A stretch of 64,000 nt of DNA, from positions 1-64,000 of the forward strand of contig NZ_WFKJ01000002.1 in assembly GCF_009208075.1 (NCBI RefSeq). The letters are read 5' to 3'. The notes beneath the pieces were generated by a model. It made no database searches. It worked only from the letters and a program-made list of their open reading frames with translations, and was not told the DNA's origin. Shown piece by piece: positions 35,952 through 56,475 of this stretch. Position 1 is the stretch's first letter; each line of letters opens with the position of its first letter. A program made the position numbers and the translations under genes. Origin of the DNA: Poseidonibacter ostreae (GTDB lineage Bacteria; Campylobacterota; Campylobacteria; Campylobacterales; Arcobacteraceae).

Positions 35952-35980
35952 AAAGAAATAGAATTAAGTTCTATTTCTTT
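35952..35980. terminator. bidirectional terminator between exbD and DUF779 gene
   Basis: A perfect 12-bp stem AAAGAAATAGAA / TTCTATTTCTTT with a 5-nt loop, A-rich before and T-rich after. It overlaps the DUF779 stop codon and separates convergent genes. Confidence 0.7.
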
Positions 35981-36351
35981 TCTTCTTCTGATAATTGTGC
36001 ATATTCTTCATCTGTAAAAATCCTAGATACTGTAATAAACTGATATCCTAAATCTATCTCTAATGAAAAAGAATTACCAAAGGCACTTTTTTCTTCTTTA
36101 ACATCAACAGTAATATGAGAGTGTCTAAAATACTCAAATTGGTCTTTATCTATAAAGAATTCACATCCACATAATTCACCTAGTTTTATATTTCTACTTG
36201 GAACATAAAAATCACCTTTTGCATAACACATAGGTGCAGTTCCATCACAGCAACCACCACTTTGGTTAAATACTAATTCACCATGTTCTTCTTTTAATTT
36301 CTCTACAACCTTAGCAGCTGCTTCTGTTATTGCTACTCTTTCTATACTCAT
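35971..36351 (-). CDS. DUF779-family protein, aldehyde dehydrogenase partner
   Basis: A 126-residue protein rich in Cys: SGGCCDGTAPMC near residue 31 and LGELCGCEFF near residue 58. DUF779 genes recur next to NAD-dependent aldehyde dehydrogenases, and this one lies just downstream of one. The role is unknown. The Cys cluster could bind metal or protect the dehydrogenase. A strong terminator sits between the two genes, so it should be expressed at a lower level than the dehydrogenase. Confidence 0.85.
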   Translation of the reverse strand: MSIERVAITEAAAKVVEKLKEEHGELVFNQSGGCCDGTAPMCYAKGDFYVPSRNIKLGELCGCEFFIDKDQFEYFRHSHITVDVKEEKSAFGNSFSLEIDLGYQFITVSRIFTDEEYAQLSEEEKK

Positions 36352-36438: not shown

Positions 36439-37935
36439 CTAGAAGAATCCCATTGCATCTTTTGAGTATGAAGTTAAAATATTTTTTGTATGTCTGTAAG
36501 AGTTTAACATCATCATATGAGTTTCTCTTCCAATTCCTGATTTTTTGTATCCACCAAATGATGCATGAGATGGGTACATGTGGTAACAATTTACCCAAAC
36601 TCTACCAGCTTCAATTCCTCTTGAGAATTTATGTAATTGGTGAGCATCTCTTGACCAGATTCCTGAACCTAATCCGTAAATTGTATCATTAGCAATTTCT
36701 AATGCTTCTTCTTCAGTTTTAAATGTAGTTACTGCAAGTACTGGTCCAAAAATCTCTTCTTGGAAGATTCTCATTTTATTATGACCTTTGAAGATTGTTG
36801 GTTTAATATAGTTTCCATTTGGATATGTTTTATTATCATATGCTTCACCACCAATTAAACACTCAGCACCCTCTTCTTTACCAATTTTGATATAAGAAAG
36901 AATTTTTTCTTTTTGAGAAACAGAACATTGAGCACCCATTTTAGTTGTAGGATCTAGAGGGTTTTCTTGTGTTATTGCTTCAATTCTCTCTAAACATCTT
37001 TTCATAAATGGCTCATAAATTGATTCTTGAATTAATGCTCTTGATGGACAAGTACAAACTTCACCAGAATTAAATGCGAATAATACTAAACCTTCAATCG
37101 CTTTATCAAAGAACTCATCATCAGCATCCATAATTGATTCCATGAAGATGTTTGGAGATTTACCACCAAGCTCTAATGTTGAAGGAATAATATTTTCTGT
37201 TGCATATTGCATAATTAACTGACCAGTTGTTGTTTCACCTGTAAATCCAACTTTTTTAATATCTGGATGAGTTGATAAATGCTTACCAATTTTTCCACCA
37301 GCACCATTAATAATATTAATTAAACCTTTTGGAAGAACATCTTGAATTGTTTCCATTAAAATTAAAATTGACATTGGAGTTGCAGATGCAGGTTTTAATA
37401 CTACTGCATTTCCAGCTGCTAATGCAGGTGCAATTTTCCATGCTGCCATTAATAATGGGAAGTTCCATGGAATAATTTGTGCAACAACACCTAAAGGCTC
37501 ATGAATTTCTTGAGAAATTGTATTTTCATCTAAATCAGAAACATCACCAGACTCTCCTCTAATTACAGAAGCAAAATATCTAAAGTGATCAACAACTAAA
37601 GGTACGTCAGCTGCAAGTGTTTCTCTAACTGCTTTACCATTATCTAAAGTTTCAGCAATTGCTAAATTCTCTAAGTTTGCTTCAATTGCATCAGCAATTT
37701 TATTTAACATTGTAGATCTTTCAATTACTGAAGAGTGCTTAAAAGATTCAAATGCAACAAGACCTGCTGCAACTGCTGCATCAACATCAGCTTCATTAGA
37801 TCTTGGAATTCTTGTTAAAACTTCATTATCAACTGGTGATACATTATCAAAGTATTCTCCACTTAAAGGTGCAACCCATTCTCCACCAATGAAGTTTTCG
37901 AATTGTGATTTATATTGAGGTTTAGTATATGCCAT
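36439..37935 (-). CDS. NAD-dependent aldehyde dehydrogenase, ExaC/AldB type
   Basis: A 498-residue soluble enzyme that oxidises acetaldehyde-like products to acids. The cofactor site includes PWNFPLLMAAWKIAPAL and FTGETTTGQ. The general base Glu is in LELGGKSPNIF. The nucleophilic Cys is near residue 300 in FNSGEVCTCPSRA, the double-Cys form typical of ExaC/AldB acetaldehyde dehydrogenases. Its promoter has four half-sites of the island's GCTATA direct repeat. It completes alcohol oxidation begun in the periplasm by the PQQ enzyme. Confidence 0.93.
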   Translation of the reverse strand: MAYTKPQYKSQFENFIGGEWVAPLSGEYFDNVSPVDNEVLTRIPRSNEADVDAAVAAGLVAFESFKHSSVIERSTMLNKIADAIEANLENLAIAETLDNGKAVRETLAADVPLVVDHFRYFASVIRGESGDVSDLDENTISQEIHEPLGVVAQIIPWNFPLLMAAWKIAPALAAGNAVVLKPASATPMSILILMETIQDVLPKGLINIINGAGGKIGKHLSTHPDIKKVGFTGETTTGQLIMQYATENIIPSTLELGGKSPNIFMESIMDADDEFFDKAIEGLVLFAFNSGEVCTCPSRALIQESIYEPFMKRCLERIEAITQENPLDPTTKMGAQCSVSQKEKILSYIKIGKEEGAECLIGGEAYDNKTYPNGNYIKPTIFKGHNKMRIFQEEIFGPVLAVTTFKTEEEALEIANDTIYGLGSGIWSRDAHQLHKFSRGIEAGRVWVNCYHMYPSHASFGGYKKSGIGRETHMMMLNSYRHTKNILTSYSKDAMGFF

Positions 37936-38009: not shown

Positions 38010-38063
38010 ATTCTACATGAGTTTTATAGCGTGAATTTAGCGTTTGTATAGCCTGAGTATAGC
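38010..38063 (-). promoter_or_regulatory. aldehyde dehydrogenase promoter with four 11-bp-spaced half-sites
   Basis: Read on the plus strand the half-sites are TATAGC at 38025, TTTAGC at 38036, TATAGC at 38047 and TATAGC at 38058, exactly 11 bp apart. Nine bases separate the proximal half-site from a minus-strand TAGAAT (-10) at 38010-38015. The array replaces a -35 box. It is one of six promoters sharing this layout and looks like two tandem dimer sites for an OmpR/PhoB-type activator. Confidence 0.85.
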
Positions 38064-38119: not shown

Positions 38120-38143
38120 CTTTAAATTTTTTATTTTATATGC

Positions 38144-38149
38144 TACAAT
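38144..38149 (+). promoter_or_regulatory. -10 element giving a probably leaderless kinase transcript
   Basis: TACAAT ends only 5 bp before the preferred ATG at 38155, so transcription would begin at or next to the start codon. No purine-rich ribosome-binding site is visible before this ATG. Confidence 0.35.
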
Positions 38150-38154
38150 ATTTT

Positions 38155-40071
38155 ATGAAGACATTTAACTATACATATAATAACAAAGCACTTGATACCT
38201 TAATTGATTTTAATTCATTTAAAAATGAAAAAAACATATTAATTCAGATATTTTGTGGAGATAAAAAATCAATCTTAAAAGAGATTGCTACAAATATACT
38301 AGATAACTTGCCTCAAGCTATTTGTATTGGATCATCTACTGATGGAGAAATTAATAATAGTAAAGTAACAACATGTAAAACTGTTATATCTATTTCTACT
38401 TTTGAAAATACAAAATTAAAAACTGCATTTGTTAGAAGGAAAGACTCTTTTAGTAATGGTGTTGATTTAGCAAAAGAGTTGTGTACAGAAGATACAAAAT
38501 TACTTATTACATTTAGTGATGGAAACAAAACAAATGGAGAATCTTTTTTAAAAGGTATTCAATCAGTTAATCATAATGTTATGGTATCTGGTGGAATGGC
38601 AGGAGATAATGCAAACTTTAGACAAACATTTATTTCATCACAAAATCAAATAGTTACAAATGGTGCAGTAGGAGTTGCATTAGATTCAAAAGTATTAAAA
38701 GTATGTAATGCTTTTAATTTTAATTGGTCGCCTATTGGAATAGAGCATACTATTGATAAAGTTGTTGATAATAGAGTTTATCAAATATCTGGAATGAAAC
38801 CTTTGGATTTTTATGAAAAATATTTAGGAGAGTATGTTGCAAAGGCATTGCCTGCAACTGGTATTGAGTTTCCTTTAATTGCACAAAGAAATGGTCTTCC
38901 TGTTGCAAGAGCAGTAATTGCTAAACATAAAGATGGCAGCTTAAGTTTTGCTGGAAATTTATATCAAGGAGATATTGTAAAACTTGGCTTTGGTAATGTT
39001 GAACTTATTATGAATAATCCACTAGAGTCCTTATTTGATACTTGCAATATAAAAGATACTCAATCCTTTTTCATATATTCATGTATGGCAAGACGACGAT
39101 ATATGCCAAGTATGGTTGATATTGAAATCAAACCCTTTTCATCAATAGCTCCAACTTCTGGGTTTTTCACCTATGGTGAGTTTTATCATGACAATGGAAA
39201 TAATGAATTATTAAATCAAACTTTTACAATTGTAGCTTTAAGTGAAATAGAAGATAGTAAAAATGATAAAAAAACATCTTGCGAAATACAAAGTGAAACA
39301 CAGCCTATAAGTGAACATGCAAGAAGTTTACAAGCACTTACACATTTGATTCAACAATCCTCACATGATTATAATAAACAATCAAAAGAGTTAGAAGAAG
39401 GAAAGATTTATGCACAAAATCTAGTAGATTCTCAAAAACAATTTTTAAAACATGCAGTTCATGAAACAAATACTCCTTTATCAATTATTATGGGAAATAT
39501 TGAAATGTATGAAATAGAGCATGGGAAGAATAAGCATTTATCAAATATTGAAGTTGCTATGAAAAATATCTCTAGTATATATGATGACTTATCTTATTTA
39601 ATAAAGAAAAACCAAGTAAATGAAGCAACTCATGAAATAAACTTAGTTGATTTTGTAAGATCTAGAATTGACTTTTTTACACAATCAGCTATAAAATTTA
39701 AATCAGAATTTAACTTTTCAAGTCAAAGAAAAGAGATGCTAATAAATTTTAATGAAATTAAACTTCAAAGAATTGTAGATAATAATCTTACAAACGCAAT
39801 AAAATATTCCTTACCAAATGAAAATATTCAAGTTAGAATGAATGTAATGAATAATGACTGTCATTTAATAATAGAGAGTCGCTCTAAACAAATTTTAGAC
39901 CAACAAAAAATATTTGAAGAGTATTATCGAGAACAAATAAGCGACCAAGAAGGATTTGGACTTGGATTAAACTTAGTAAAACGTATTTGTAGTGAAGAAA
40001 ATGTTGGAATACAATTAGCATCTGGTGAAAATTGGTCATCATTTACATATATATTTAAGGAAATAAAATGA
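38155..40071 (+). CDS. cytosolic FIST-domain sensor histidine kinase
   Basis: About 638 residues with no membrane helix. Residues about 25-370 match FIST_N plus FIST_C sensor domains (ICIGSSTDGEI, VSGGMAGDNA, CMARRRYM, APTSGFFTYGEF). A kinase core follows with H-box HAVHETNTPLSII near residue 435, N-box IVDNNLTNAIKYS and G-box GFGLGLNLVKRIC. FIST domains are thought to bind small intracellular ligands. The open frame extends to 38044, but that would add a hydrophobic stretch and run into the regulatory repeats, so the ATG at 38155 is preferred. It overlaps the regulator gene by ATGA and is the likely control point of the alcohol-oxidation regulon. Confidence 0.88.
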   Translation: MKTFNYTYNNKALDTLIDFNSFKNEKNILIQIFCGDKKSILKEIATNILDNLPQAICIGSSTDGEINNSKVTTCKTVISISTFENTKLKTAFVRRKDSFSNGVDLAKELCTEDTKLLITFSDGNKTNGESFLKGIQSVNHNVMVSGGMAGDNANFRQTFISSQNQIVTNGAVGVALDSKVLKVCNAFNFNWSPIGIEHTIDKVVDNRVYQISGMKPLDFYEKYLGEYVAKALPATGIEFPLIAQRNGLPVARAVIAKHKDGSLSFAGNLYQGDIVKLGFGNVELIMNNPLESLFDTCNIKDTQSFFIYSCMARRRYMPSMVDIEIKPFSSIAPTSGFFTYGEFYHDNGNNELLNQTFTIVALSEIEDSKNDKKTSCEIQSETQPISEHARSLQALTHLIQQSSHDYNKQSKELEEGKIYAQNLVDSQKQFLKHAVHETNTPLSIIMGNIEMYEIEHGKNKHLSNIEVAMKNISSIYDDLSYLIKKNQVNEATHEINLVDFVRSRIDFFTQSAIKFKSEFNFSSQRKEMLINFNEIKLQRIVDNNLTNAIKYSLPNENIQVRMNVMNNDCHLIIESRSKQILDQQKIFEEYYREQISDQEGFGLGLNLVKRICSEENVGIQLASGENWSSFTYIFKEIK

Positions 40072-40727
40072 AAATATTACTATTAGAAGATGATGTAATG
40101 TTAAATGAGATGATAAGTGAATACTTATCATCAACAGGACATGTAGTAAAAAGTACAACTACAGGACAAGAGTGTTTAGAAACTCTAGATAAAGAAAAGT
40201 TTGACTTACTTATTTTAGATATTAATCTACCTGATGTTAATGGCTTTACAATACTTGAAACACTTCATGAACAAAAAAGAATGGTTCCAACTATTTATAT
40301 TTCTGCATTAATTGAAATAGAAGATATTTCAAGAGCCTTTGATATTGGATGCCATGACTATTTAAAAAAACCTTTTCATTTAAAAGAACTTACAATTAGA
40401 ATAAATAAAATATTAAAAACAACAATTGTTCCTCAAAAACATAAAAGATTATCAAAAAACTACTCTTATGATAGTGAAACAATGACACTTTTATTTAATA
40501 ATGAACCTCAAATATTACCAAAGAGGCAAATTCAAATTATTGAATTACTTGCACATAATAGAAGTTTAGTTGTTCAATATGATATGTTTAGAAACTATGT
40601 TTGGAATGATGACTTTATAGATAATGCAACAATAAGAGCTGAAGTAAATAGAGTAAAAAAAGTTTTAAAAGAAGATTTTATTAAAAATATCAGAGGAAGT
40701 GGATATATGGTAGAAAGACCTAATTGA
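40068..40727 (+). CDS. OmpR/PhoB-family response regulator, partner of the FIST kinase
   Basis: A 219-residue regulator. The receiver domain has the acidic pair E7-D8-D9, phospho-acceptor D51 (LLILDINLPD), a Thr/Ser switch region and KKPF. A winged-helix DNA-binding domain follows (about residues 130-217: LPKRQIQIIELLAHN, ATIRAEVNRVKKVL, IRGSGYMVE). Proteins of this class bind direct repeats with 11-bp spacing just upstream of -10 elements, which is the pattern seen at six island promoters. Its ATG overlaps the kinase stop. Confidence 0.93.
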   Translation: MKILLLEDDVMLNEMISEYLSSTGHVVKSTTTGQECLETLDKEKFDLLILDINLPDVNGFTILETLHEQKRMVPTIYISALIEIEDISRAFDIGCHDYLKKPFHLKELTIRINKILKTTIVPQKHKRLSKNYSYDSETMTLLFNNEPQILPKRQIQIIELLAHNRSLVVQYDMFRNYVWNDDFIDNATIRAEVNRVKKVLKEDFIKNIRGSGYMVERPN

Positions 40728-40895: not shown

Positions 40896-41918
40896 ATGAA
40901 ATTAGTTAAATCACTAAGTATATGTCTATTGGGAGCGAGTTCTTTATTTGCATCATCATTAATTGAAAAAGCTGTGGATAATGGTTTAAAAGCAATTCCT
41001 GCAAATAAAGCAGAATTAATGAAATTAATTGATGATAAAAATGATCCAATTACAAAAGAGAAAGTTGAACTTGGAAAAAAGCTATACTTTGACCCAAGAC
41101 TTTCAAAAAGTGGAATAATCTCATGTAATACTTGTCATAATATTGGACTTGGTGGAGCAGATGGAATTCCAGCTGCTATTGGTCATGGATGGACAGCAAA
41201 TCCTCATCATTTAAATTCACCAACAGTTTATAACTCTGTATTTTTTAAAGCACAATTTTGGGATGGAAGAAGTCCTCACTTAGCAGATCAAGCACAAGGT
41301 CCAATTCAAGCTGGTCCAGAAATGGCTGCACCACCAAAACTAGTTGAGCAGAGAATAAACTCAATCCCTGAATATGTAAATGAATTTCAAAATGCATATG
41401 GAAAAGATGTAAAAGTAGATTTTAAAAAGATTACTGAAACTATTGCAACTTTTGAAAAGATTCTAGTTACTCCAGCACCTTTTGATGACTATTTAAATGG
41501 TAATGAAGATGCATTATCAAAAGAAGAAAAAGCAGGACTTAATACTTTTATAGATAAAGGCTGTGCATCGTGTCATACTGGAATTGCTCTTGGTGGAACT
41601 ATGCAGCCTTTTGAATTAGCTACAAAATATAAATTTGCATCTGTGGGAGATTTTAAAGGTAATGAGCAAGGTATGGTAAAAACTCCAACTTTAAGAAATA
41701 TTACTGAAACTGCTCCATATTTCCATAATGGACAAATCTGGTCTTTAAGTGAAGCTGTAAAAGAGATGGGTTCTGTTCAGTTAGGAATAAATATATCCAA
41801 TAAAGAAGCTGCATCAATTGTGACTTTCTTAAAAGCACTCAAAGGTATAAAACCAGATATTGCATATCCTCAACTTCCAGAATCTACAATTAACACTGCA
41901 AAACCTGAGTTTAACTAA
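40896..41918 (+). CDS. periplasmic di-haem cytochrome c peroxidase
   Basis: A 340-residue protein with a signal peptide (ICLLGASSLFA). Two haem c sites are present, CNTCH near residue 76 and CASCH near residue 223, with the family segments YFDPRLSKSG, FWDGRSPHL and TPTLRNITETAPYFHNG. It reduces hydrogen peroxide with electrons from c-type cytochromes. It sits inside the alcohol-oxidation island but lacks the shared promoter motif. It has an AAAGGAG ribosome-binding site and a strong terminator. Confidence 0.93.
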   Translation: MKLVKSLSICLLGASSLFASSLIEKAVDNGLKAIPANKAELMKLIDDKNDPITKEKVELGKKLYFDPRLSKSGIISCNTCHNIGLGGADGIPAAIGHGWTANPHHLNSPTVYNSVFFKAQFWDGRSPHLADQAQGPIQAGPEMAAPPKLVEQRINSIPEYVNEFQNAYGKDVKVDFKKITETIATFEKILVTPAPFDDYLNGNEDALSKEEKAGLNTFIDKGCASCHTGIALGGTMQPFELATKYKFASVGDFKGNEQGMVKTPTLRNITETAPYFHNGQIWSLSEAVKEMGSVQLGINISNKEAASIVTFLKALKGIKPDIAYPQLPESTINTAKPEFN

Positions 41919-41962: not shown

Positions 41963-42838
41963 TTAAAAGCTTATTGAAACATAAAAACTAATATCAAACT
42001 CATCATCTTCACTTAAATAATTATTCTTTTTGTATTCAGTATATGATGGTTTTGTAGTTGTTTCATACTCACTATTTGGAAGCCATTCATGATAAACCCA
42101 ATGAATAAACTTTAATACATCTCCTTTTTTCCCTTTTAAATCAAATCTTGCATAAACACCTTTTGCAATATAAAAATCTGGTAATCTATCACTTTTAATA
42201 TCTTCGTCTTCATCTGGGACTATACATGCAATATATTGACATTCACTTAAAGGTGTAATAGTTGGATTATCATGAAAAAGTGCAATTTGCTTATATGATT
42301 TTATATCATTACTTAAAACCCATGTATATAACTTTTGCCATGTATTTGTAATATTTACGTTATAGCCTTTATTTCTGATGTAAAAACTCTTTAATGATGA
42401 CATTTTAACAATTGTTGGTCTTAAATTAGAAAAATCTGCTGTAGAATTTCTGGCTATTAATGATTGTTTTAAAATTTCTTGTGAGTACTCTTTATATCCA
42501 CCAGTTCTCCACTGTTTTGGCGTTTGATTAAATCTTTCTTTAAAGATTTTTATAAAAGAAGATTGAGATGAGTATCCACAAATATTTGCTATATTTGAAA
42601 TTGTTGATAATTTATTTGTTAAAAGTAAGTTTGAGGCTTTTTGTAACCTTATTGATTTTATACTCTCATAAATATTTCTGCCAAATGCTTCTTTAAAAAT
42701 ACGGTGCATATGGAATTTACTTACATTTAAATCTATACTTAACTCTTCTATATCAATATCTGTATCAATATGAGTATAAATATAATACATAATATTATTT
42801 GCTATTTTTGTTCTTTTTTTTAGAGTTTCTTTTTTCAT
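41963..42838 (-). CDS. AraC-family regulator with GyrI-like effector domain
   Basis: A 291-residue regulator. The N-terminus has two helix-turn-helix units (ELSIDLNVSKFHMHRIFKEA; IANICGYSSQSSFIKIFKE) followed by the family sequence FNQTPKQWR near residue 105. The rest resembles the GyrI/SOUL-like ligand domain seen in Rob-type regulators (SFYIRNKGYN at its start). It could respond to small hydrophobic compounds. The targets are unknown. It is monocistronic. Confidence 0.85.
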   Translation of the reverse strand: MKKETLKKRTKIANNIMYYIYTHIDTDIDIEELSIDLNVSKFHMHRIFKEAFGRNIYESIKSIRLQKASNLLLTNKLSTISNIANICGYSSQSSFIKIFKERFNQTPKQWRTGGYKEYSQEILKQSLIARNSTADFSNLRPTIVKMSSLKSFYIRNKGYNVNITNTWQKLYTWVLSNDIKSYKQIALFHDNPTITPLSECQYIACIVPDEDEDIKSDRLPDFYIAKGVYARFDLKGKKGDVLKFIHWVYHEWLPNSEYETTTKPSYTEYKKNNYLSEDDEFDISFYVSISF

Positions 42839-46805: not shown

Positions 46806-46880
46806 TTATACTGTACAAATGTACATTGTAACTTCAAAGCCAAATCTATTATCTACGTAAGTTGGTTTTTTCCATTCCAT
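46806..46880 (-). CDS. pqqA: PQQ precursor peptide PqqA (24 residues)
   Basis: A tiny gene of 24 codons plus stop, preceded by GGAG 7 bp before the ATG. The peptide starts MEWKKPTYVDNRFGFE and carries the diagnostic core FEVTMY, in which Glu16 and Tyr20 are the residues joined by PqqE to become PQQ. The tail ICTV follows. It lies between the PQQ dehydrogenase (37 bp upstream) and pqqB, so precursor and apo-enzyme share a transcript. Confidence 0.95.
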   Translation of the reverse strand: MEWKKPTYVDNRFGFEVTMYICTV

Positions 46881-46917
46881 AATAATCTCCTTTCATTAAG
46901 ATTTTATTTCTCTTTTC

Positions 46918-48684
46918 TTATCTATGTAATTTAAATACGTGAACTGATCCACCTTGATTTAAATACTTAACAGTTTTTGCAACTTCACCACCCCATAAAG
47001 GAACAGCTCCACCCCAACCTGCAACTACAGCAATATATTGGTCTTTACCTTCTTTCCAAGTAATAGGAGAACCTACGATTCCAGTACCTACATTAAACTT
47101 CCAAAGAATTTCACCAGTTTGATCATCAAATGCTAATAACTTACCTTCAGGAGTACCAGTAAATACTAAACCACCACCAGTAGTTAAAACTCCACCCCAT
47201 AATGGTGCAGGATTTTTATAAGTCCATTTAGTTTCACCAGTTTTTGGATCAATAGCTTTTAAAGCTCCAATATGATCTTTAAATGTTGGTTTAATAGTAA
47301 ATCCAGCACCTAAATAAGCTGCACCTTTTTTATACGCAACAGGTTTATTCCAAATATCCATTCCCCACTCATTTGCAGGAATATAGAATAATCCAGTATC
47401 TTGTGAGAATGCCATTGGATTCCAGTTTTTACCACCTAAGAAAGATGGAGTTGAGTAAACCGTTTTACCTTGTTTATCTGCACTTGGTTTTCCAGGTCTG
47501 TTATCTTCATTAACAATTGGTCTACCATTTTCATCCATACCTTTTGCCCAAGTAATATTTTCAACAAAATTTGTTGATCTAATATATTTACCTGTAACTC
47601 TATCTAATACATAGAAGAAACCATTTTTATCAGCAGTAGCTCCTGCTTTAATCATTTTTCCATTTTTATCTTTGTATTCAAAAGCTACAAATTCAGAAAT
47701 ACCATCATAATCCCAACCATCATTTGGAGTTGTTTGGAAATGCCAAACAATTTTTCCAGTATCTGGGTTAATTGCTACTCTTGAAGCAGAATAAAGGTTA
47801 TCACCTGGTCTATCATGTGAATTCCAAGGAGCTGGATTTCCAGTTGGAACATAAATTAAATCTGCATCTGGGTCATAAGTAACACCATTCCAAGGAGCAG
47901 CTCCACCGTGTTTCCATAAATCACCTGGCCAAGTTGCATTAGTTTGTCCAGTAATTCCATTATCTTTACCATTTAAAGTACCCATATGACCTTCAACCAT
48001 TGGTCTAGTCCATACAATTTCACCAGTTAATGGATTTCTTGCATCTAATTGTCCAACAACACCAAACTCACCACCAGAATTTCCAGTAATTAGTAATCCT
48101 TTTACAATTAAAGGAGCTGCTGTATAAGAGTAACCATCTTTATAATTAGCAATTTTCTTTTTCCACTTAACTTTTCCAGTTTTTCTATCAAGTGCAACTA
48201 ATTTTGCATCTAATGTTCCAAAAATAACTAAATTTTGGTATAATGCAGGACCTCTGTTTATTACATCACAACAAGGTAAAATAGCACCTGGTAATCTTGC
48301 ATCGTACTGCCAGATTTCTTCACCAGTTGCTATATCAATAGCATACATTCTTGAATAAGATGCAGTTACATACATAACACCATCTTTAACTAAAGGTTGA
48401 GCTTCTTGACCTCTTTGTTTTTCACCACCAAATGAAAAATTCCATACTGGAACTAAATCTTTAATAGTCTTCTTATTAATTTGATCTAAAGATGAATATC
48501 TTTGACCTTTTTGACCTAAACCATATGTTACAACATCTTCAACAGTTTTAGCATCATTTGCAATATCAGCATCAGTTACTGGTGCAAAACCAGCATTTGC
48601 AGATAACATTGTTACAGCACTTGCACTTAAAAGTGTAGATAGTGTAACTTTAGCTACATTATTCAGAAATTTATTCTTCCCCAT
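46918..48684 (-). CDS. PQQ-dependent alcohol dehydrogenase, lanthanide type (PedH/ExaF/XoxF-like)
   Basis: A 588-residue periplasmic beta-propeller quinoprotein with a signal peptide (about residues 1-32). Tryptophan-docking repeats are present (for example [14 protein letters not shown]). The vicinal disulfide is C138-C139 ([10 protein letters not shown]). Metal ligands are E206 (GGEFGVVG), N283 (PTGNPAPWN) and catalytic D325. The residue two after it is Asp (D327, in WDYDG) where calcium enzymes have Ser or Ala. That Asp is the hallmark of lanthanide-dependent dehydrogenases. [10 protein letters not shown] and PAPWNSH favour the ethanol (PedH/ExaF) branch, but the clade needs a tree. It has a strong AAGGAG site and the shared island promoter. 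Confidence 0.93.
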
Positions 48685-48732: not shown

Positions 48733-48764
48733 AGTATACATGAGAAATATAGCCTGAATATAGG
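48733..48764 (-). promoter_or_regulatory. PQQ dehydrogenase promoter with direct-repeat activator site
   Basis: Half-sites on the plus strand are TATAGC at 48748 and TATAGG at 48759 (11 bp apart). Nine bases then separate them from the minus-strand TATACT (-10) at 48733-48738. This promoter should drive the dehydrogenase, pqqA and, by read-through, pqqBCDE. Confidence 0.85.
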
Positions 48765-51310: not shown

Positions 51311-51730
51311 TTATTCAACTATAATAATAGCTCTTTCTCTATCACTTTTAGCAGTTGGTAAACCTAAAGTAAAAGTTCCAGGTTTAATTGGAATAAATGT
51401 AAGTTCAATCTCACCTTCATCATCAAATTCAAAACTATCAATTCCTAATGGTCTTACTTCAATATCATTAATAGATACTTGATTTACCCAGATATTTCTA
51501 AAAAACTCAGCTCCAACAATAGGTACTTCTCTTGAACCATCACTTTTTAAAACTAACTTGTAGTATTTACCTGCTTCTAATTTATAAGGTTCCGTAGCTA
51601 ATGGTTCACCTGCACTAATATTAATAGGTGCTAATGTAGTTCTTGAGTGTAATAAACCCTTTAAATTCTTTGCAGATGCAAACTCTGCTGTTATAAATAC
51701 CATCATTAGTAACATTGCAATTTTTTTCAT
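51311..51730 (-). CDS. secreted cupredoxin-like protein without copper ligands
   Basis: A 139-residue protein with a signal peptide ending near ASA (residue 20). The beta-rich pattern (YYKLVLKSDGSREVPI, IELTFIPIKPGTFTLGLP) resembles a cupredoxin fold, but the His/Cys/Met copper ligands are not there. An acidic stretch (DSFEFDDEGEIE) is present. It is first in the operon with the beta-propeller, ATPase and permease and has the shared promoter. A possible metal-binding role is only a guess. Confidence 0.7.
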   Translation of the reverse strand: MKKIAMLLMMVFITAEFASAKNLKGLLHSRTTLAPINISAGEPLATEPYKLEAGKYYKLVLKSDGSREVPIVGAEFFRNIWVNQVSINDIEVRPLGIDSFEFDDEGEIELTFIPIKPGTFTLGLPTAKSDRERAIIIVE

Positions 51731-51759: not shown

Positions 51760-51791
51760 AGTGTAGTAAATAATTATAGCCTCAGTTTAGC
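51760..51791 (-). promoter_or_regulatory. promoter of the cupredoxin-like/PedABC operon
   Basis: Plus-strand half-sites TATAGC at 51775 and TTTAGC at 51786, a 9-bp gap, and minus-strand TACACT (-10) at 51760-51765. Confidence 0.85.
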
Positions 51792-51804
51792 AATATATAA
51801 ATTT

Positions 51805-51836
51805 GCTAAACTGAAGCTATAAAAGTTATATATACT
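51805..51836 (+). promoter_or_regulatory. promoter of the substrate-binding protein operon
   Basis: GCTAAA at 51805 and GCTATA at 51816, a 9-bp gap, and TATACT (-10) at 51831-51836. It is divergent from the preceding promoter, with the two sites only 14 bp apart. Confidence 0.85.
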
Positions 51837-51860
51837 AAAAGAAAAAAAGAAGGAATGACC

Positions 51861-53009
51861 ATGAGAATAGTACTATTTATTACACTTTTATTTTCATTTA
51901 TAAAAGCAGATATTTTAGAAACAAATATTTTATATTTAGAGCAAAAGATACAAAGGCCTCCAGTTTTATCCAATGTTATTGAAATACCAGAAGACTTAGG
52001 AATACAAGGAGCTAAAATTGCTGTGAAAGATTCAAATAAAACAGCAAGGTTTTTAAATCAGAAATATAATTTAATAGAAAAGATTTCATCTGATAAAAAA
52101 GAGTTATTATCTTCACTAGAAAAATTTATAAATGAGAAAAACTCTTTTGTTTTATTAAAAGTTGAAGATGATTTTTTAAAAGAACTTATTAAAAATCCTT
52201 TATTTAAAAAAGCAGTATTTTTTAATATTGCAAATAAAAATTCAGATTTTAGACAAAGTTTATGTAATAAAAATCTTTTACATACTATTGCTTCAAATGC
52301 AATGTTATATGATGGCTTAATTCAATTTTTAGTAAAAAGAGATTTTAAAGATATCTTTTTAATTTCAGGAACAAAGCAAAAAGATTTACAAATAAAAAAA
52401 GATATTAAAAGAGCAATAAAAAAGTTTAATGCCAATATAATAGAAGAAAAACAATGGGCTTATAATACTGATATTAGAAGAAAAGCTGCTGATGAGTTAC
52501 CAGTCTTTACACAAGCTAAGGATTATGATGTAATTGTTACAGCTGATAATTATGGAGATTTTGGAGAATTTGTTTATTTTAACTCTTGGCTTCCAAGACC
52601 ACTTGCAGGAACGCAAGGACTAACTCCAAAAACTTGGCATAAAGTGATTGAACAATGGGGTGCAGCACAAATGCAAAATAGGTTTGAAAAGTTTGCTTCA
52701 AGATGGATGGAAGATGAAGACTTTGCAGCTTGGATTGCTATTAGGACTATTGTTGCAAGTGTAAGTAAAACAAAAAATAATGATATGAAAACATCTTTAG
52801 ATTATATTTATTCAAAAGATTTTGAATTAGGAGCTTATAAAGGAAGAAAATTAACATATAGAGATTTCAATGGACAAATAAGAATGCCAGTTGCGCTTGT
52901 TCAACCTAATGCTTTAGTTTCAACTTCACCTCAAGATGGTTTCTTACATCCAACTAATGATTTAGATACTTTAGGAATCGCTTCATTTCAAGTAGAGTGT
53001 AAAAAGTAA
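51861..53009 (+). CDS. PQQ-alcohol-dehydrogenase-associated substrate-binding protein (TIGR03863-like)
   Basis: About 382 residues with a signal peptide. It is related to branched-chain-amino-acid-type periplasmic binding proteins, but with the features of the PQQ-linked family (GDFGEFVYFNSWLPRPLAG, EDFAAWIAIRTI, FNGQIRMPVALVQP, SPQDGFLHP). It is expected to deliver or sense ligand for the PedBC-like transporter. Two ATG codons are close together. The second (51861) is 6 bp from AAGGA, while the first (51855) touches it, so the second is preferred. Confidence 0.88.
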   Translation: MRIVLFITLLFSFIKADILETNILYLEQKIQRPPVLSNVIEIPEDLGIQGAKIAVKDSNKTARFLNQKYNLIEKISSDKKELLSSLEKFINEKNSFVLLKVEDDFLKELIKNPLFKKAVFFNIANKNSDFRQSLCNKNLLHTIASNAMLYDGLIQFLVKRDFKDIFLISGTKQKDLQIKKDIKRAIKKFNANIIEEKQWAYNTDIRRKAADELPVFTQAKDYDVIVTADNYGDFGEFVYFNSWLPRPLAGTQGLTPKTWHKVIEQWGAAQMQNRFEKFASRWMEDEDFAAWIAIRTIVASVSKTKNNDMKTSLDYIYSKDFELGAYKGRKLTYRDFNGQIRMPVALVQPNALVSTSPQDGFLHPTNDLDTLGIASFQVECKK

Positions 53010-54951: not shown

Positions 54952-55920
54952 CTACCATTTGATATCTGGTGTAAAATTCCAGAATGTTTTATTATCTAAA
55001 AAGGTACTATTTCCTACTAGTTTTTTTCCACCCTCTTTATATAAAATATCAAATACTTTTTTAGAATTTTCAATATGAGTTATTGAAAAGTTTTTTACAA
55101 TTCCGTTTATATATCCATCTTTTAAAGATGTAAACATTTCATCATTTTTTACTTTCATTAAGGGTTTAATTCTATCCCATTCTTTTTCTGAAGTACTTAA
55201 TAGTTTTTTCGTTTCATAAGATGCTTGTAAAAAACCATTTATTGCTTTTTTATTTTTATTTGCAAAATCACTATTAAAAGTCCAACCAATAAGAGGGATT
55301 TCACTACTTATATTAAACTCTTCTAGAATTTCTTTTACACCTAATAATCTTTTTAATCCTTTAGATTCTAATTTTGCATTAAAGTGCCAAAAGTTTATTG
55401 AAGCATTAAGTGATTTATCTAGCATCTTTTTATATAAAATAGGAGGGGCTGCAAATACAGGATTTACCATATTTTTTAAATCTTTATTATATTTATTTTT
55501 ATAATAAGCTCTAAATAACAGCCATGTTTTATCAACACTTCCACCTGCTATTCCTAATCTTTTTTGTGATAAGTCTAAAAGTGACTTGATTTTTTCGTCA
55601 TTTACATATAAAGCACCAACAGCTTTAGAATAAGGATAAAAAGAGATATCTTTTCCACTTGCTCTTTGTCTATTTACCCAAACCCAATCATTTACAATAA
55701 TATCAACACTATTTGATTGTAAGGCAATTGAAACTGCATTTTTAGAAGCTAACTTTACAACTTCAACTTCTATTCCATATTTTTCATCAAGTTTATTATG
55801 TTTTAAAACATCTAATTCCCAGTTTACTGTTCCAAATGCTAAAACACCAATTTTTATTTTCTCATTAGCAGCTAGATCTATTATTGCAATAAACATTAAT
55901 ATAAGTATTTTTAATTTCAT
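54952..55920 (-). CDS. TauA/SsuA-type substrate-binding protein of unknown ligand
   Basis: A 322-residue periplasmic protein with a signal peptide (ILMFIAIIDLAANE). It has the NMT1/SsuA fold pattern: KIGVLAFGTVNWELDVL, VDIIVNDWVWVNRQRA, LGIAGGSVDKTWLLFRAY. It is the first gene of a three-gene importer and has the shared island promoter, divergent from pedF. The ligand is unknown. A PQQ- or lanthanide-linked nutrient, or an alcohol-related compound, are possibilities only. Confidence 0.88.
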   Translation of the reverse strand: MKLKILILMFIAIIDLAANEKIKIGVLAFGTVNWELDVLKHNKLDEKYGIEVEVVKLASKNAVSIALQSNSVDIIVNDWVWVNRQRASGKDISFYPYSKAVGALYVNDEKIKSLLDLSQKRLGIAGGSVDKTWLLFRAYYKNKYNKDLKNMVNPVFAAPPILYKKMLDKSLNASINFWHFNAKLESKGLKRLLGVKEILEEFNISSEIPLIGWTFNSDFANKNKKAINGFLQASYETKKLLSTSEKEWDRIKPLMKVKNDEMFTSLKDGYINGIVKNFSITHIENSKKVFDILYKEGGKKLVGNSTFLDNKTFWNFTPDIKW

Positions 55921-55944: not shown

Positions 55945-55976
55945 ATTGTAATAGAAAATTGTAGCCTGACTATAGC
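55945..55976 (-). promoter_or_regulatory. promoter of the TauABC-type operon
   Basis: Plus-strand half-sites TGTAGC at 55960 and TATAGC at 55971, a 9-bp gap, and minus-strand TACAAT (-10) at 55945-55950. Confidence 0.82.
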
Positions 55977-55997: not shown

Positions 55998-56029
55998 GCT
56001 ATAATCAAGCTATAAAATAAATATATACT
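55998..56029 (+). promoter_or_regulatory. promoter of the pedF operon
   Basis: GCTATA at 55998 and GCTATA at 56009 (perfect repeats, 11 bp apart), a 9-bp gap, and TATACT (-10) at 56024-56029. It should drive pedF, the XoxJ-like gene, the SoxYZ-like gene and the hydrolase gene. Confidence 0.88.
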
Positions 56030-56058: not shown

Positions 56059-56475
56059 ATGAAAAATTTAAAGAAAATTGCACTTGTAGTGTTAGCAACA
56101 TCTACATTAGCATTTGGTCATGGAGATGTAACTCCTCAAGCAGTTGAAACTAAAGGTTTAGAAAAAGTAGCAGCAGACGTAATTGTTAACCCATTTAGAG
56201 ATAATGAAATTGCAATTGAAATTGGTAAAAGTGCTTATAATACTAACTGTGCAAGATGTCATGGTTTAGGTGCCGTTTCAGGTGGTGTTGCACCTGATTT
56301 AAGAGCACTAGATCCAAAAGATGATGATATTGATGAGTACTTTGTTACAAAAGTAATGGAAGGTGCTGTTAGAAATGGTAATGTTTATATGCCACCATTT
56401 GGAGAAGTTTTATCATCTGAAGCAATTTGGGCAATTAGATCATGGGTAGAGACTTTACCAACAGACGATTTATAG
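56059..56475 (+). CDS. pedF: cytochrome c550 PedF, electron acceptor of the PQQ dehydrogenase
   Basis: A 138-residue periplasmic cytochrome with a signal peptide. The mature N-terminus HGDVTPQAVETKG is a PedF signature. One haem c motif CARCH lies near residue 65, and the axial Met is in VYMPPFGEVLS. It carries electrons from the PQQ enzyme to the respiratory chain. It is the first gene of a four-gene operon whose order equals that of Pseudomonas ped clusters. Confidence 0.93.
   Translation: MKNLKKIALVVLATSTLAFGHGDVTPQAVETKGLEKVAADVIVNPFRDNEIAIEIGKSAYNTNCARCHGLGAVSGGVAPDLRALDPKDDDIDEYFVTKVMEGAVRNGNVYMPPFGEVLSSEAIWAIRSWVETLPTDDL

Follow-up and report, generated by a model that had tools for sequence, protein, structure and literature searches.

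A cytosolic FIST-domain sensor histidine kinase and the OmpR/PhoB-type response regulator encoded with it very probably switch on genes for aldehyde and alcohol oxidation in Poseidonibacter ostreae through a short repeated DNA tag, predicted from sequence at six promoters. The genes and tags lie within a 64,000-nucleotide stretch of the genome, the whole of which is referred to here as the window. FIST domains are widespread and, to our knowledge, their ligands are mostly unknown apart from the sensing of NO through haem by NosP. The data presented here tie one FIST kinase family to one job, by way of promoter sites and three unrelated families of aldehyde-oxidising enzymes.

The kinase-regulator pair and its candidate promoter sites

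The kinase gene (38155-40071, plus strand) encodes a single 638-residue protein in which Pfam detected an N-terminal FIST domain, FIST_C, HisKA and HATPase_c. Both FIST (128 bits) and FIST_C (72 bits) scored above their cut-offs, placing the protein in the FIST domain superfamily. The FIST sensor spans approximately residues 1-366, the DHp region contains His436 within the kinase/phosphatase motif HETNT, and the HATPase domain covers residues 534-623. HETNT fits the H-E/D-x-x-T/N phosphatase consensus (PMC12570481), suggesting that the kinase is probably bifunctional. A hydropathy scan of the kinase revealed no membrane segment (top 19-residue value, 1.16). Its closest named relative, from P. 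lekithochrous, is 90% identical. The regulator gene (40068-40727, plus strand) starts in an ATGA overlap with the kinase stop codon and encodes a 219-residue protein with a receiver (Response_reg, 91 bits) and a winged helix (Trans_reg_C, 40.8 bits), both above cut-off and typical of the OmpR/PhoB domain arrangement; alignment of orthologues and paralogues located its recognition-helix region at NATIRAEVNRVKK. A MauG/di-haem cytochrome c peroxidase-like gene (40896-41918) lies right after the regulator gene and is found in only some relatives of the genus.

The pair is divergent to the gene for an ExaC-like NAD aldehyde dehydrogenase (ALDH; 36439-37935, minus strand; Pfam Aldedh), which synteny identified as its constant partner in Arcobacteraceae. 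The ALDH promoter displays an array of four GCTAWA half-sites with an 11-bp period (38025-38063, minus strand), conserved in relatives. Read from 38063 to 38025, the half-sites are GCTATA/GCTATA/GCTAAA/GCTATA, followed after 9 bp by TAGAAT (38010-38015, minus strand), assigned as the -10 element from its sequence and from spacing statistics. Coordinates, Pfam and sequence thus agreed with the sequence-only reading, which had described a pair divergently adjacent to the ALDH gene and its four-half-site array, and the hydropathy scan bore out its statement that the kinase has no membrane segment.

Five other promoters in the window carry a putative regulator site made of two half-sites 11 bp apart, then N9 and a -10 element. 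These are the promoter of the PQQ-dependent alcohol dehydrogenase (PQQ-ADH; 48733-48764, minus strand, CCTATA-N5-GCTATA-N9-TATACT) and those upstream of 51311-51730 and the PedA2-PedB-PedC genes (51760-51791, minus strand), of the PQQ-ADH-associated ABC binding protein (TIGR03863) gene at 51855-53009 (51805-51836, plus strand), of the binding protein gene at 54952-55920 (55945-55976, minus strand, one half-site mismatched as GCTACA), and of pedF (56059-56475) with the PedG, SoxYZ-like and SoxH-like genes (55998-56029, plus strand). All six promoters fit GCTAWA-N5-GCTAWA-N9-TANANT with at most one mismatch in one half-site, and the gap between the last half-site and the -10 was exactly 9 bp in 6/6. 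The earlier claim of 11-bp repeats 9-11 bp before the -10 was therefore correct and can be narrowed to a gap that is always 9 bp. Direct repeats with a period of approximately 10-11 bp upstream of the -10 are the arrangement of OmpR/PhoB regulators, and the window promoters show it with an 11-bp period and N9 to the -10; binding by the window regulator is predicted.

The kinase gene probably has a different promoter. An extended -10 element, TGCTACAAT (38141-38149, plus strand), is proposed on the basis of its conservation in relatives, and TGNTACAAT is kept approximately 5 bp upstream of the kinase ATG in Arcobacteraceae (element region 38141-38157); the kinase mRNA is probably leaderless. 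Because this conserved element directly abuts the ATG, the kinase gene is probably not under the array; there was no sign that the array drives it, and this arrangement was not favoured.

A search of the 2.96-Mb genome with the exact pattern returned 5 matches, 5/5 within the window, and the reversed control returned none, indicating that the sites do not arise by chance. Across 104 genomes of the family, 187 exact matches were found and the reversed control produced isolated matches only. At least one exact match was present in 47/62 genomes with the kinase versus 1/42 without it; put the other way, 47 of the 48 genomes having a match encode the kinase, and 15/62 kinase genomes have no exact full-pattern match. 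The sole site-bearing genome without the kinase, G034, appears to contain a chance match. The -10 stood at gap 9 in 116 of the 214 distinct double half-sites. Few had another gap, save for those displaced by one or two registers of 11 bp and for 15 cases at gap 7; the latter are consistent with a double reading of TATATACT. The first half-site lay 11 bp upstream in 119/167, and the site logo read GCTAWAyTCAGGCTATAAA...TATAAT. A loose pattern with two mismatches and no -10 was useless (1132 matches versus 781 in the control). Long arrays of five or six GCTATA half-sites were also seen in G001 and G002 (L160:3446-3518, L161:7789-7860), outside the cluster and without a -10 at N9.

Aldehyde-oxidising enzymes and the FIST sensor

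The window ALDH scored 818 bits against the ExaC acetaldehyde dehydrogenase equivalog, by far its best family, and did not reach the cut-off of 900; the enzyme is ExaC-like, not ExaC by that cut-off. A DUF779 protein (35971-36351, minus strand; Pfam, synteny) is encoded in the same direction and conserved alongside ALDH. At 71 loci from named genomes, the neighbour of the pair was an ExaC-like ALDH (36 loci), a molybdenum aldehyde oxidoreductase (Mo-AOR; 13) or a tungsten-type AFOR enzyme (4), the last two types occurring in Sulfurospirillum and relatives; no aldehyde enzyme was in view at 18/71 loci (short contigs, paralogue 2, G012/G030 and others). Paired half-sites were detected at 12/13 Mo-AOR and 2/4 AFOR promoters, many with a -10 at N9, and several distant ALDH promoters (ALDH identity 70-75%) had no obvious site. 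Three unrelated enzyme families with only their reaction in common make aldehyde the common theme. With an aldehyde oxidiser as constant neighbour, aldehyde oxidation is the likeliest basic role of the pair.

Alcohol oxidation by PQQ-ADH accompanies the pair in part of the family. The window encodes a PQQ-ADH (46918-48684, minus strand; TIGR03075, 761 bits, cut-off 480) together with cytochrome c550 PedF, a PedA2-type propeller, an ABC binding protein, a SoxYZ-like carrier and a SoxH-like hydrolase; TIGR03075, TIGR04494, TIGR03866, TIGR03863, TIGR04557 and TIGR04558 all scored above cut-off, as in a ped/exa cluster. The small ORF MEWKKPTYVDNRFGFEVTMYICTV (46808-46882, minus strand), between PQQ-ADH and pqqB, resembles pqqA, so that pqqABCE may follow the PQQ-ADH promoter. 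Within the 104 genomes, PQQ-ADH never occurred without the pair (31/31 PQQ-ADH genomes carry it) and was undetected in 31/62 pair-bearing genomes; those of the latter that were inspected kept the DUF779-ALDH genes divergent to the kinase-regulator genes, with the array present. The pair had been proposed as a switch for alcohol oxidation. This stands insofar as the PQQ-ADH cluster promoters carry the site, but the switch is not alcohol-specific, half of the pair genomes being without a detected PQQ-ADH. Targets with a site in single lineages include an NDH-2-like pyridine nucleotide oxidoreductase, a porin-like protein, a FIST chemoreceptor, a polyferredoxin with an ApbE-like gene and an enzyme which we take, by eye, to be phosphate acetyltransferase; the NDH-2-like enzyme and the phosphate acetyltransferase fit alcohol/acetate metabolism.

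The FIST part as modelled by AlphaFold (pLDDT 89) resembled human FBXO22 (Z 20-21, 3.2-3.3 Å over approximately 260 residues) and, more remotely, the Toblerone fold of chorismatase and cyanuric acid hydrolase (Z 11-13). This likeness surfaced by fold comparison only, a PDB sequence search with the FIST part having returned no match. The invariant kinase residues are H436, C310, H198 and H345. Cys310 is the sole invariant cysteine (42/42 sequences) and shares column 92 of the Pfam FIST_C profile with FBXO22 Cys326; the assignment assumes an ungapped alignment from the fragment ends to the Cys, and the FBXO22 segment was checked against PDB chains. We know of no natural role of FBXO22 in aldehyde sensing. 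FBXO22 Cys326 forms covalent adducts with aldehydes, those tested being drug-like (PMC11208438). The Cys-x-x-Arg motif is also found in FIST-MCP proteins, so the cysteine may be structural, a general feature of the fold, and we propose Cys310 as the sensor residue only tentatively.

The constant aldehyde-oxidiser neighbour, usually with the same promoter site, makes an aldehyde the likeliest signal. The earlier guess of an aldehyde signal is thereby strengthened, and an aldehyde could well be what the kinase perceives, a proposal we hold to be evenly balanced. In a more speculative version, which we consider possible rather than probable and which draws on analogy with FBXO22, the FIST domain would be an aldehyde receptor: aldehydes in the cytosol would bind Cys310 as a reversible adduct and thereby activate an OmpR regulon that removes them, with nearby FIST-MCPs relying on this chemistry to steer swimming. 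FIST-domain methyl-accepting chemotaxis proteins are encoded near the pair in Sulfuricurvum and Sulfurospirillum (L256:8601-10628, L184:5383-7356) or have their own site (G107).

With the same pair and sites, the FIST domain might instead be a haem-based sensor of NO (or redox) like NosP, and the operons would then follow respiration or nitrosative state, not aldehyde. The invariant His198 and His345 are possible haem ligands, and in four genomes (G008, G009, G076 and G080; L180:2299-5254, L176:1990-4956) the site precedes the gene for a Fer4_5 polyferredoxin, which we take, by eye, to be NosR-like, accompanied by an ApbE-like gene. NosP proteins, also of the FIST type, sense NO via a haem-binding FIST domain (PMC12570481). 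However, the window kinase scored 55 bits against the NosP equivalog (NCBIfam cut-off 450), the genes constantly next to the pair encode aldehyde oxidisers from three unrelated families, and no NO-related gene was found beside the pair in the window. We consider this alternative rather unlikely, and an aldehyde remains the preferred signal.

Probable assignment of the sites to the window regulator

Half-sites 11 bp apart were present at the ALDH promoters of 46/46 genomes with the pair (all those read) and of 0/13 genomes in which an ALDH orthologue is retained without the pair. In the ALDH tree, these 13 pair-less genomes group as one clade and thus represent a single co-loss event (n=1), which is strong in kind. 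In G012 and G030, ALDH and PQQ-ADH are unlinked to the pair and sites are still found at both, indicating that linkage alone is insufficient as an explanation. The repeats would so be read by the window pair or by some regulator lost together with it. Across genomes, the sites track the pair and vanish with it, which supports the OmpR-type control of the six promoters put forward from the window sequence; the window regulator in all likelihood reads the candidate sites. The ALDH promoters of the pair-less clade (L191-L203) share a different motif, approximately TGTNACTNTAATGCTA, at the same place, perhaps for a replacement regulator.

The sites could also be read, alone or jointly, by a second OmpR-type regulator, the orphan paralogue RR2 (L080:10101-10766, on contig C13 of the window genome, G000). 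RR2 is 65% identical to the window regulator and its recognition helix, NATIRAEVNR(V/L)KK, is near-identical; its own FIST kinase, present in G003, G004, G007-G009 and G011, is missing from the window genome as well as from G001 and G002. Nevertheless, the only genera in which RR2 was found are that of the window and one neighbour, whereas sites and the adjacent pair co-occur over many genera, including Sulfurospirillum, making a contribution of RR2 improbable. It is also quite improbable that the window regulator is a repressor over the -35 region, released upon signal. The last half-site does overlap the -35 position and HETNT is compatible with strong phosphatase activity, but a fixed 9-bp gap with no recognisable -35 matches the needs of PhoB-type class-II activators, and a repressor needs no single gap. 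The AraC/GyrI-like regulator encoded inside the cluster (41963-42838) was rejected as controller and is a most improbable candidate, since no copy of it was detected next to the pair in G009, G017, G020, G022, G027, G033 and G036, where the sites are kept. The related OmpR regulator RR3 is an unlikely reader; G018 and G034, which have RR3 and no pair, contain zero or one exact match.

Proposed mechanism and comparison with known systems

The likely reading of these sequence data, and the one we propose, is that kinase and regulator make up a cytosolic two-component system that governs aldehyde oxidation in Campylobacterota. Its FIST domain would detect a cytosolic aldehyde, or a state accompanying one, and the kinase would pass phosphate to the OmpR-type regulator, as the domains and gene overlap suggest. 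The phosphorylated regulator would bind GCTAWA half-sites, two or four in number and spaced 11 bp apart, the last of which, 9 bp before the -10, would stand in for a -35 so that RNA polymerase is recruited as by PhoB. Its basic target would be the adjoining aldehyde-oxidising enzyme. Poseidonibacter and other lineages with a ped-like PQQ-ADH cluster have the same site at the cluster promoters, so that genes for alcohol oxidation, cytochrome, accessory functions and aldehyde removal may be induced together.

The literature searched yielded no FIST/aldehyde regulator in Campylobacterota and no Poseidonibacter alcohol dehydrogenase, and Campylobacterota gain a predicted regulon for aldehyde and alcohol use of which no earlier description was found there. 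The proposal provides a concrete ligand class, aldehydes, and a precise 32-bp site for tests, and the family shared by the sensor and an aldehyde-binding human protein makes an aldehyde-sensing role testable.

In the pho box, direct half-sites with an 11-bp period lie approximately 10 bp upstream of the -10 and take the place of the -35. The window system resembles PhoB/OmpR systems in this layout and in its receiver and winged helix, but its half-site is GCTATA, not the pho box sequence, and the partner is a soluble FIST kinase. Human FBXO22 has the same fold and a Cys, aldehyde-binding in FBXO22, in the same FIST_C column (PMC11208438); unlike the kinase, it is a ubiquitin-ligase substrate receptor. 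The NosP-NosK/NahK systems likewise place a histidine kinase under FIST control (PMC12570481), whereas the window FIST belongs to another subfamily by score and is fused to its kinase, and the pair is proposed to act through transcription of genes for aldehyde/alcohol oxidation in place of c-di-GMP/RsmA.

The closest parallel in gene content is the ped/exa region of Pseudomonas, where a FIST-type protein and a soluble kinase are also found inside a PQQ-ADH cluster with PedA/B/C/F/G and SoxYZ/SoxH-like genes (PMC12997753). There, the FIST-type PP_2663 or PA1975 (NosP) is co-cistronic with the soluble kinase PedS1 or NahK (ErcS'), beside agmR, and deletion of pedS1 alters pedF promoter activity (PMC12997753). 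Control in Pseudomonas involves NosP/PP_2663 with PedS1/NahK/ErcS', YiaY with PP_2683/ErcS, AgmR/ErbR and PedS2-PedR2; sensing and kinase functions reside on separate proteins, the latter being hybrid kinases, and the outputs are LuxR-type regulators or an HptB relay. The window kinase matched the NahK/ErcS model NF041832 over the kinase core only (37 bits, cut-off 400). The suggestion that the wiring is new relative to Pseudomonas therefore needs qualification, as Pseudomonas also has a FIST protein with a soluble kinase (PMC12997753). What does look new is the OmpR-type output and the direct wiring of operons: in the window, a single protein joins FIST to a simple kinase, the predicted phosphotransfer logic is simple too, and the kinase has an OmpR-type regulator of its own with a candidate site at each operon.
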